From a virus, in IMG/VR virus record IMGVR_UViG_3300037228_000026, positions 1 to 47,426 of that record: DNA of 47,426 nucleotides; one strand, given 5' to 3'. Shown piece after piece: positions 22,019-29,839 of the stretch. The position numbers and the translations under genes were made by a program. Below the pieces are notes generated by a model that made no database searches, was not told the DNA's origin, and was given only the letters and a program-made list of their open reading frames with translations. Positions within the stretch are counted from its first letter, which is position 1. Every line of letters begins with the position of its first letter.

Positions 22019-22603
22019 TTAGTAGTCGATAGCTTCCTGCCTTGTGATAAAGAAGTGTATACCGTTTGAGCACTCAACGCGCGGGTCGGGATTAAACGAA
22101 TTCGGCTCAATGAGCCCTATCTTATACTCTGTGCTGTCATGGCACGCTTTGCCTGTACCGCTTAGAACGTAAGCAAACTCCGCGCGGCATTTGCGCGAAC
22201 CATAGGCGTTAACTCTCTTAGCATCGTGCGGAATTTGCAGAGTTGCGATTGTACCACCACGAAGTTTCTTATAACCAATAATTGAACCTTCCGGCAGAAT
22301 ACAGAATGACTCTAAACCTTTCGCGCCGCTCAGGTTCGCGCCGCGCAAGTCCGCGCCGAGCAGGTTCGCGCCGCGCAAGTCCGCGCCGAGCAGGTCCGCG
22401 CCGAGCAGGTGCGCGCCGCGCAAGTCCGCGCCGCGCAAGTCCGCGCCGCTCAGGTTCGCGCCGTTCAGGTCCGAGCTGCTCAGGTTCGCGCCGTTCAGGT
22501 CCGCGCAGCTCAGGTTCGCGCCGCGCAAGTCCGCGCCGAGCAGGTCCGCGCCGCTCAGGTTCGCGCCGCGCAAGTCTTGTCCCGGTGTATATTTGTCGTT
22601 CAT
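22019..22603 (-). CDS. Pentapeptide-repeat protein with DUF5758-like C-terminus
   Basis: A 194-residue protein. Residues 10 to about 95 are uninterrupted pentapeptide repeats (A-[DN]-L-x-G; GADLRGANLSGADL), which fold as a right-handed beta-helix; some members mimic DNA and inhibit gyrase. Residues about 97-194 (FCILPEGSIIGYKKLRGG to GIHFFITRQEA) match the DUF5758 domain often attached to such repeats in phages. ATG 22603 has GGAG nine bases upstream. The repeat is coded by near-identical 15-base units, so copy number may vary. Confidence 0.85.
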   Translation of the reverse strand: MNDKYTPGQDLRGANLSGADLLGADLRGANLSCADLNGANLSSSDLNGANLSGADLRGADLRGAHLLGADLLGADLRGANLLGADLRGANLSGAKGLESFCILPEGSIIGYKKLRGGTIATLQIPHDAKRVNAYGSRKCRAEFAYVLSGTGKACHDSTEYKIGLIEPNSFNPDPRVECSNGIHFFITRQEAIDY

Positions 22604-28338: not shown

Positions 28339-28362
28339 GCTGCGAACTCAACTTGATTTGTA

Positions 28363-28394
28363 TGTGGCTACGATATATCGTAGCCACACTTTTT
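28363..28394 (+). terminator. Perfect 26-nt palindrome with T-run
   Basis: TGTGGCTACGATA and its exact complement abut at 28363..28388 without a loop base and are followed by CTTTTTGG. As RNA this gives a long stem and a U-run, so it is a probable intrinsic terminator for the small-gene cluster 27751..28338. Confidence 0.7.
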
Positions 28395-28404
28395 GGAGGA
28401 CTGT

Positions 28405-28626
28405 ATGACTGACTTAATCGCTGGCGGGCTTGGGCTGGTAATCGGCGCGATCATAGGTGCCACGATCGGGTACAAGTGGATCTCGGCTGAGCTGGCAACC
28501 GCAAAAGCGGATCTCTCCAGCTTGCTTGATAAGGCGGCCCCGATAGTCACTGCGGCTGGTCCGCTGACTCCCACGGCGGCGCTTGCTGCTGCTGTATCCG
28601 CTGTCAAAACCAAGGTCGCGAAATAA
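28405..28626 (+). CDS. Small membrane protein with Gly-zipper helix
   Basis: A 73-residue protein from ATG 28405 with GGAGG seven bases upstream. Residues 4-26 (LIAGGLGLVIGAIIGATIGY) are one membrane helix with G-x3-G spacing, followed by an Ala-rich amphipathic helix. The ribosome binding site overlaps the T-run of the preceding terminator. Function unknown. Confidence 0.65.
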   Translation: MTDLIAGGLGLVIGAIIGATIGYKWISAELATAKADLSSLLDKAAPIVTAAGPLTPTAALAAAVSAVKTKVAK

Positions 28627-28630
28627 CGAA

Positions 28631-28701
28631 TCTGGAGGGTGCGGGTTCGAGTCCCGCTGGTAAAGTTTACCGTAACCATAGCTTAGTGGTAGAGCACCAG
28701 A
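28631..28701 (+). other. tRNA halves in permuted order (3' half before 5' half)
   Basis: 28631..28664 reads as a tRNA 3' half: anticodon-stem strand TCTGG, variable loop AGGGT, T-arm GCGGG-TTCGAGT-CCCGC, acceptor strand TGGTAAA. Then 28672..28701 reads as a 5' half: acceptor strand GTAACCA, TA, D-arm GCTT-AGTGGTA-GAGC, A, anticodon-stem strand CCAGA. CCAGA and TCTGG pair fully, and the acceptor strands pair at five of seven positions. No anticodon loop joins them in this order. It may be a circularly permuted tRNA gene or the remnant of a tandem duplication. Confidence 0.55.
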
Positions 28702-28704
28702 ACC

Positions 28705-28749
28705 CCGCAGCTAGCCCGGTAAACCCGGCAAACTGGCTGCGGATTTTTT
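28705..28749 (+). terminator. Hairpin with T6 before tRNA-Trp
   Basis: CCGCAGCTAG at 28705..28714 pairs with CTGGCTGCGG at 28733..28742 (ten pairs, one G-T), followed by A and six T. The loop contains a short direct repeat, CCCGGTAAA/CCCGGCAAA. A Rho-independent terminator is likely, which would separate the permuted halves from tRNA-Trp. Confidence 0.65.
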
Positions 28750-28753
28750 GAAT

Positions 28754-28830
28754 AGGCTGGTAGTTCCAATTGGTAGAACGCCGGTCTCCAAAACCGGATG
28801 TTGAGGGTTCGAATCCTTCCCGGCCTGCCA
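28754..28830 (+). tRNA. tRNA-Trp (anticodon CCA)
   Basis: A complete 77-base tRNA. The acceptor AGGCTGG pairs with CCGGCCT (one G-T), followed by discriminator G and an encoded CCA end. The anticodon stem CCGGT/ACCGG encloses the loop CTCCAAA with anticodon CCA for tryptophan. The T-arm GAGGG-TTCGAAT-CCTTC is canonical. The encoded CCA fits a bacterial or phage tRNA. It lies 25 bases before the sugar dehydratase gene. Confidence 0.95.
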
Positions 28831-28855
28831 AGTTCGGAAAAACGGAGAGGCACAA

Positions 28856-29839
28856 ATGCCCGTAGAAAAGCAGAAAGTTGCCTGTGTAACGGGCGCAGGC
28901 GGCTCACTTGGTTCGATACTTACGCGCGCACTCGTTGCCGAAGGGTACACGGTGCGCGCGGTTTCTCGCAGCGAGCTGTCCATGCACAAGCTGCTAGCGG
29001 GCGGCGCAGAGGGCATAGAACCCATCATCGGCAACATTCTTGACGCGGATACGCGACGGCGCGCGCTCTCCGGTGCATCTCTGGTGTACCATACGGCGGC
29101 GCATAAGCACGTCAAATTCTGCGAGGATAATCTCCTCGAAGCCGTGCGCAATAACGTGCTTGGCACAATGCTGCTGGCAGAGAGCGCACTCCAGACTGAT
29201 TCTATTGAACAGTTCATCCTGCTGTCCACCGACAAGGCTGTGTATCCGTCAAACGTGATGGGCATGACGAAGCGCGTCTGTGAGCTGTTGATGCATTACT
29301 ACATGACCGGCGTTCCAGCGGCCTTCAAGGTCGCGCGCTTATGCAACGTGCGCGGCACCAGCGGCTCCGTCTATGATATTTGGCGTCGTCAGCTGAATAG
29401 CGATCAGCCACTCACTGTTGTCAAAGACATGTGGCGCTACTTCATGAGTCCCGCCGAAGCCGAGCGCTTTCTGCTTGCAGTGCGCGAAGTGTCGGTGGAC
29501 ATGAGCGGTCTGCCAGAAGTGTTTTTCCCCGCAGGGTTGAAGGAAGCCTCGATTGAGGAGTTGGCGCGGGAATTTATAAAAGGCTACCCGAACGAGATCA
29601 ATTTTGTTGAACCGACACCCGGCGAGAAGCAGCACGAGTCAATGACGCACAGCTACTCGCCGGTTGACTTTGTCGAGAACGGCATCGCGGTTGAAGAGGA
29701 CTCCGTGCCGGACACGTTTAAGCAGGGAGTTGAGCAGCTTTTGACTCACCTGATACAAGGGGAAGCCTTCGCGATCAAGGTTGCTTTACAGAAAGCCATC
29801 AGCTCCGTTACCATTGTGACCTCATCGGAGACCCATTAA
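28856..29839 (+). CDS. CapD/FlaA1-like nucleotide-sugar dehydratase/epimerase
   Basis: A 327-residue extended SDR enzyme. TGAGGSLG at residues 12-19 is the NAD(P) binding loop. AAHKHV (81-86), STDKAV (124-129) and PSNVMGMTKR, where Met135 and Lys139 replace the usual Tyr-x3-Lys pair, are hallmarks of UDP-GlcNAc 4,6-dehydratase/5-epimerases of the CapD/PseB group. It makes an activated deoxy-keto sugar. GGAGAGG lies upstream of ATG 28856. With the three glycosyltransferases it may build or alter a glycan on phage or host. Confidence 0.85.
   Translation: MPVEKQKVACVTGAGGSLGSILTRALVAEGYTVRAVSRSELSMHKLLAGGAEGIEPIIGNILDADTRRRALSGASLVYHTAAHKHVKFCEDNLLEAVRNNVLGTMLLAESALQTDSIEQFILLSTDKAVYPSNVMGMTKRVCELLMHYYMTGVPAAFKVARLCNVRGTSGSVYDIWRRQLNSDQPLTVVKDMWRYFMSPAEAERFLLAVREVSVDMSGLPEVFFPAGLKEASIEELAREFIKGYPNEINFVEPTPGEKQHESMTHSYSPVDFVENGIAVEEDSVPDTFKQGVEQLLTHLIQGEAFAIKVALQKAISSVTIVTSSETH

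Follow-up and report, generated by a model that had tools for sequence, protein, structure and literature searches.

The window analysed here is an IMG/VR virus record of 47,426 bp that carries terminase, major head protein, DNA polymerase and primase genes, as well as a gene at the portal position that is common to relatives. Collagen-like glycine repeats and a pentapeptide-repeat protein occur at 21–1544 and 22019–22603. Between a small membrane-type gene and an ordinary tRNA-Trp gene lies a tRNA-like module in which the two tRNA halves are swapped: T-arm, acceptor and D-arm follow one another in that order and are closed by one stem, with both ends of the module falling in the anticodon loop. 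In ARAGORN and Rfam annotation, only the tRNA-Trp was called and the module was not. The features are as follows.

28405–28626, + strand: small membrane-type ORF of 73 aa, no family match, stop codon 4 nt before the module
28631–28635, + strand: 5′ strand of the closing stem, TCTGG (UCUGG in RNA; tRNA positions 39–43), 5/5 Watson-Crick with 28697–28701, followed in the module sequence by AGGGT, which separates it from the T-arm
28641–28657, + strand: canonical T-arm, GCGGG-TTCGAGT-CCCGC (RNA: GCGGG-UUCGAGU-CCCGC), from the sequence and the covariance model
28658–28664, + strand: 3′ acceptor strand, TGGTAAA
28665–28671, + strand: seven-base linker, GTTTACC
28672–28678, + strand: 5′ acceptor strand, GTAACCA
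28658–28678, + strand: acceptor-like hairpin, either tRNA-style UGGU/ACCA (5/7, two mismatches) or, better, UGGUAA-agu-UUACCG
28679–28695, + strand: canonical D-arm, UA-GCUU-AGUGGUA-GAGC (TA, then GCTT-AGTGGTA-GAGC at 28681–28695), from the sequence and the covariance model
28697–28701, + strand: after an A, 3′ strand of the closing stem, CCAGA (tRNA positions 27–31)
28705–28749, + strand: terminator-like hairpin, CCGCAGCUAG/CUGGCUGCGG, then A and U6 (T6 in DNA), three bases after the module
28754–28830, + strand: ordinary tRNA-Trp, CCA anticodon, CCA end encoded (ARAGORN; Rfam, 59.2 bits)
28627–28855, + strand: ~229-bp insert comprising the module, the hairpin, the tRNA-Trp and a new ribosome-binding site, absent from the same junction in two relatives

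A preliminary description of this locus had placed the 3′ half before the 5′ half, at coordinates that proved exact, and had paired all five bases of TCTGG with CCAGA, as we also find. Its count of five acceptor pairs in seven holds as well, but the linker is the preferred partner of the 3′ acceptor strand: in single-strand folding, UGGUAA/UUACCG has a probability of 0.84, compared with 0.001 for the tRNA-style acceptor stem. The closing stem folds with a pair probability of 0.92, and the D-arm reaches only 0.04, being outcompeted by an alternative pairing in a calculation that leaves tertiary contacts outside the model. The region as a whole folds better than its shuffles (z −2.41), which is partly owed to the 3′ hairpin. 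The tRNA-Trp lies downstream as described, with the correction that the hairpin and its T6 tract intervene. This hairpin is not listed by a consensus scan, whose loop limit of 8 it exceeds; it ends a few bases before the tRNA-Trp, and the scan showed nothing promoter-like in the interval. Within the upstream ORF, GGCTGGTCCG at 28550–28565 might form weak pairs with the hairpin's 3′ arm. This motif equals what we take to be the start of vertebrate Y RNAs, a likeness that is probably coincidental, as it sits in coding sequence.

Two syntenic relatives (L007 and L008), whose terminases and portal proteins are 58–61% and 58–60% identical to those of the window, lack any tRNA at the corresponding junction; there, the small gene runs straight into the gene that follows, in a TAATG overlap. 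That following gene in L007 is the epimerase-type gene also present in the window (38% identity), and a lipoprotein-like gene further upstream is 45% identical. The small gene itself corresponds by synteny and position only, with no BLASTP match, and searches for relatives of the window's small protein found none. The relatives have no meaningful YrlA-like match. An intact tandem ancestor in related phages, which the preliminary description had suggested looking for, is thus not what the site holds in these two genomes: it is empty.

The permuted tRNA body is real. In a shuffle test over the whole window, a perfect T-arm with a complete D-arm no more than 60 nt behind it occurs at one place, against 2 matches over 300 dinucleotide shuffles; with the closing 5/5 stem included, the pattern is found once in the window and never in the 300 shuffles. 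The covariance search that had been proposed as a check gave E values of 2.7e-7 (39.9 bits) with a model of 40 phage permuted tRNAs and 3.6e-6 with the YrlA model. The former match covers the tRNA body only (model positions 42–118 of 147). Tandem ordinary tRNAs reach up to 45 bits with the same model, so that body-only scores overlap and the 39.9 bits of the module support a tRNA origin, not class membership.

The two halves derive from one tRNA type, as had been claimed. As a yardstick, we parsed 821 ordinary tRNAs out of 239 phage loci and counted two halves as matching when they formed a 5/5 Watson-Crick anticodon stem with five or more of the seven acceptor pairs. Between neighbors, the 3′ half of the one matches the 5′ half of the other in this way in 1 of 526 adjacent pairs (0.19%), and random pairs of different tRNAs do so in 0.11% of cases, compared with 63% for a tRNA with itself; such rare matching between different tRNAs argues for a single source. 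The spacing by itself is compatible with a tandem origin, because gaps as short as seven bases are not unusual among adjacent phage tRNAs (178/526, in a sample selected by a short-gap pattern). Candidate parents were sought without success. Phage matches are 74–80% identical over most of the query and are mainly tRNA-Asn and tRNA-Lys; among bacterial tRNAs, 15 have the same anticodon stem, but their acceptor stems are unrelated and none is a clear parent. Exact searches of viral contigs for either half returned no match, and exact patterns gave no second copy.

The module is not a decoding tRNA. U33, present in 96% of the ordinary phage tRNAs of the yardstick set, is not provided by any flank join that keeps a seven-base loop; acceptor pairs 1–72 and 3–70 fail; and position 15–48 is G-T, a combination found in 1.2% of ordinary phage tRNAs and in none of the 111 listed permuted phage tRNAs described below.

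The closest match, which the preliminary description missed, is a Y-RNA-type tRNA-mimic module, which has exactly this order of T-arm, acceptor and D-arm. YrlA (RF02553), a bacterial Y RNA and partner of Ro60/Rsr, has in common with the module a T-arm, a looped acceptor stem, a D-arm and a closing stem, and its consensus, with a short looped acceptor stem and no anticodon, holds roughly what the module holds. YrlA is also the best Rfam match beyond tRNA, at 29.9 bits, far below the gathering cut-off of 69 bits; the match spans only positions 23–87 of 114, and the long Ro-binding stem built from both ends is absent. We rejected this score as proof of a Y RNA, as it is non-specific: scores run up to 27.5 bits for tandem tRNAs and lie mostly at 26–51 bits for phage permuted tRNAs. 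Other systems offer partial parallels. The circularly permuted tRNA genes of algae and one archaeon also place the 3′ half before the 5′ half around a short intervening sequence, but they have a bulge-helix-bulge junction, mature through a circular intermediate and yield complete tRNAs (PMC3978253), none of which applies to the module, whose junction showed neither a bulge-helix-bulge nor any other processing motif, and near whose halves no flank helix was found. Permuted two-piece tmRNA genes likewise put the 3′ part before the 5′ part with a short internal spacer; unlike them, the module has a full tRNA D-arm and an anticodon-type stem, and no tmRNA family matches 28350–28860 in Rfam at E ≤ 10.

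Permuted tRNA bodies are common in phages. Most matches in a scan of viral contigs for a T-arm followed by a D-arm were tandem tRNAs, but 26, including the window, lay outside any ARAGORN tRNA, and many of these had complementary acceptor strands joined by a short loop, which marks them as the permuted body of a single tRNA. Searching next with a pattern built on the common flank TACTTC recovered at least 126 distinct elements (for example L101, L118, L196, L245 and ~120 more), 111 of those listed having 6–7 acceptor pairs. Their flanks read GGYGYAG and NTACTTC and form a covarying stem, P2. Joining the flanks gives a five-pair anticodon stem with varied anticodons in most listed members; five pairs together with U33 and a purine at 37 are restored in 87 of the 111 listed, compared with 36 expected after shuffling, and pairs 27–43 and 28–42, which cross the break, both form in 83/93 listed (25.6 ± 3.6 after shuffling). 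Of the 111 listed members, 74 have G-C at position 15–48 and 33 have A-T. In an alignment of 40 members, compensatory changes are seen at 17 of 23 pairs, among them the whole seven-pair acceptor stem and the flank stem. The break falls in the anticodon loop in some members too, such as L090, L153 and L217. In L115 (1607–1672), the anticodon loop may by eye read ATTTAAA, with a UUA anticodon (ochre stop), which automatic joining did not confirm. Five further permuted bodies (L024, L054, L089, L096 and L124) are flanked by TTCATCCTTCT or ACAGCAA and not by TACTTC, and are possibly further Y RNA subclasses.

These class elements are Y-RNA-type tRNA mimics, as judged from their conserved stem beside a Ro60/TROVE gene: TROVE is encoded in 36 of 42 records with class elements and in 0 of 38 tandem-tRNA control records (Fisher p 8e-17), a contrast that is weakened but not removed by the shortness of many control contigs. 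By coordinate comparison, the elements often lie on the strand of the Ro gene and within about 2.5 kb of it. In Xanthomonas phage 10KY502B, five GGTG..TACTTC..TTCCC stem elements precede the TROVE gene (L249 2100–2820; 20.1–20.8 kb of the phage), three with a permuted tRNA and two as copies of the flank stem without one. From the TROVE association and these tRNA-less stems, we infer that the class flank acts as a Y RNA's Ro-binding stem, which enters the anticodon stem around 28/29, and that the permuted tRNA is the effector module of this Y RNA. The same two observations led us to drop the idea of the flank as a new splicing ribozyme, and the RtcB ligase was discarded as a partner, being present in only 3/42 records. 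In 2014, Chen et al. reportedly described probable Y RNAs close to Ro60 in numerous bacteria and phages, and we do not claim the class itself as new. Y RNAs and Rsr are known in bacteria (PMC4726728), and Y RNAs that associate with Ro60 have been reviewed as carrying a tRNA-like domain similar to the D, T and acceptor arms (PMC8394870); the complete anticodon arm of the phage elements exceeds the mimicry of those three arms. GenBank lists class elements as odd tRNAs: a 67-nt tRNA-Asn in Microbacterium phage SM23, a 68-nt tRNA-Thr in Xanthomonas phage 10KY502B and an overlapping tRNA-Leu call in Gordonia phage Boopy. Misannotated elements in named phage records lie at L243 1177–1316, L245 1175–1317 and L246 1153–1293.

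The module in the window has the same body as this Ro-associated class, and one covariance model matches both. The class, however, has GGYGYAG/NTACTTC flanks, stem P2, 6–7 acceptor pairs, a paired 15–48 and mostly U33, and the module has none of these. A flank helix search found neither TACTTC, Ro-stem flanks nor an outer helix at the class position; the best flank helix, of 11 pairs with several G-U, lies at −80/+36, which is not that position. TROVE had 0 matches in the 47-kb record, which may be incomplete.

Starting from the direct observations of architecture, single-tRNA origin, missing parts and an empty site in relatives, we favor, at about even confidence, the explanation that the module is a decayed, Ro-less permuted tRNA module of Y-RNA type, now a relic without a dedicated function. 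A circularly permuted, tRNA-mimicking body, with its T-arm, looped acceptor and D-arm held by one closing stem, would have entered the phage together with the tRNA-Trp, presumably as a unit in the ~229-bp insert. Its Ro-binding stem, Ro60 partner and usable anticodon loop could have been lost since, or could have been missing on arrival. The transcript of the small gene upstream would carry the module in its 3′ untranslated end, with transcription probably ending at the hairpin, and the present state of the module is most likely one of decay, in which function has presumably gone. The body-only model match, the association of the class with Ro60 and the lack of TROVE, Ro flanks and an outer helix in the window speak for such a relic, as do the absent U33, G15–T48, the two acceptor mismatches, the outcompeted D-arm and the empty site. 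Against it stand the intact T-arm, D-arm and closing stem, with approximately the content of the YrlA consensus; the strong terminator-like hairpin three bases after the module, where a small RNA would end; and the overlap of body-only scores with those of tandem ordinary tRNAs.

The main rival to the relic, which we regard as somewhat unlikely, reads much of this counter-evidence as function. The module would be a working, Ro-independent small RNA that ends at the hairpin and whose tRNA elbow is recognized by tRNA-binding proteins, serving as a decoy, a tether or a stabilizer of the 3′ end. The intact arms and closing stem, the YrlA-like looped acceptor, the hairpin directly after the module and the better-than-shuffled fold (partly the hairpin's) are what such an RNA would have, but the module has no Ro-binding stem and no TROVE gene, carries G15–T48, does not prefer the D-arm fold, was not found in relatives and had no second copy in exact-pattern scans of viral contigs. 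Improbable, in our view, is a leftover of two tandem tRNA copies whose outer halves were lost, leaving the inner halves by chance in permuted order. The adjoining tRNA-Trp and the frequent short gaps in phage arrays, as seen in the short-gap-selected sample, suit this origin, which the preliminary description had offered; it is weakened by the single pair of neighbors in 526 that match as one tRNA, by the absence of outer-half remains and by relatives without a tRNA here. Moreover, both breaks lie in the anticodon loop, which would require two independent coincidences, so one arrival of a ready-made permuted body is simpler than two tandem truncations.

Much the same permuted order and five-pair anticodon stem might instead mark a functional gene that yields a decoding tRNA by cleavage in the acceptor loop and ligation in the anticodon loop, and other phages' permuted tRNAs do regain anticodon stems on joining. 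The earlier suggestion of a permuted tRNA maturing by another route nevertheless founders on the lack of any possible U33, the failed pairs 1–72 and 3–70 and the missing junction motif; there is no bulge-helix-bulge-like flank helix, and none of the ten window proteins searched is an RNA ligase. We therefore consider such a gene very unlikely. Integrases often use tRNA 3′ halves, which is the one point in favor of a host tRNA having given rise to an attachment site (attP core). That origin would leave the 5′ half over, no identical host tRNA was found and the window has no tyrosine integrase (PF00589), making it scarcely credible.

More broadly, phage Ro60–Y RNA systems might display complete circularly permuted tRNAs of many anticodon specificities, with the Ro stem at ~28/29 allowing the full tRNA fold without splicing, and thereby act as decoys or sensors for tRNA-acting enzymes; the module in the window would then be a bare mimic that works independently of Ro. 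We regard this combined proposal as rather doubtful. The layout itself accounts for odd tRNA calls in phage genomes, as a T-arm before a D-arm is the arrangement of Ro60-associated Y RNAs. In the phage elements the anticodon arm is complete, covaries across the break and bears varied anticodons, which goes beyond the YrlA mimicry discussed in PMC8394870, and the copy in the window indicates that the module can occur without Ro60. These findings open a testable question: whether such elements are Ro-bound tRNA decoys or real permuted tRNAs.
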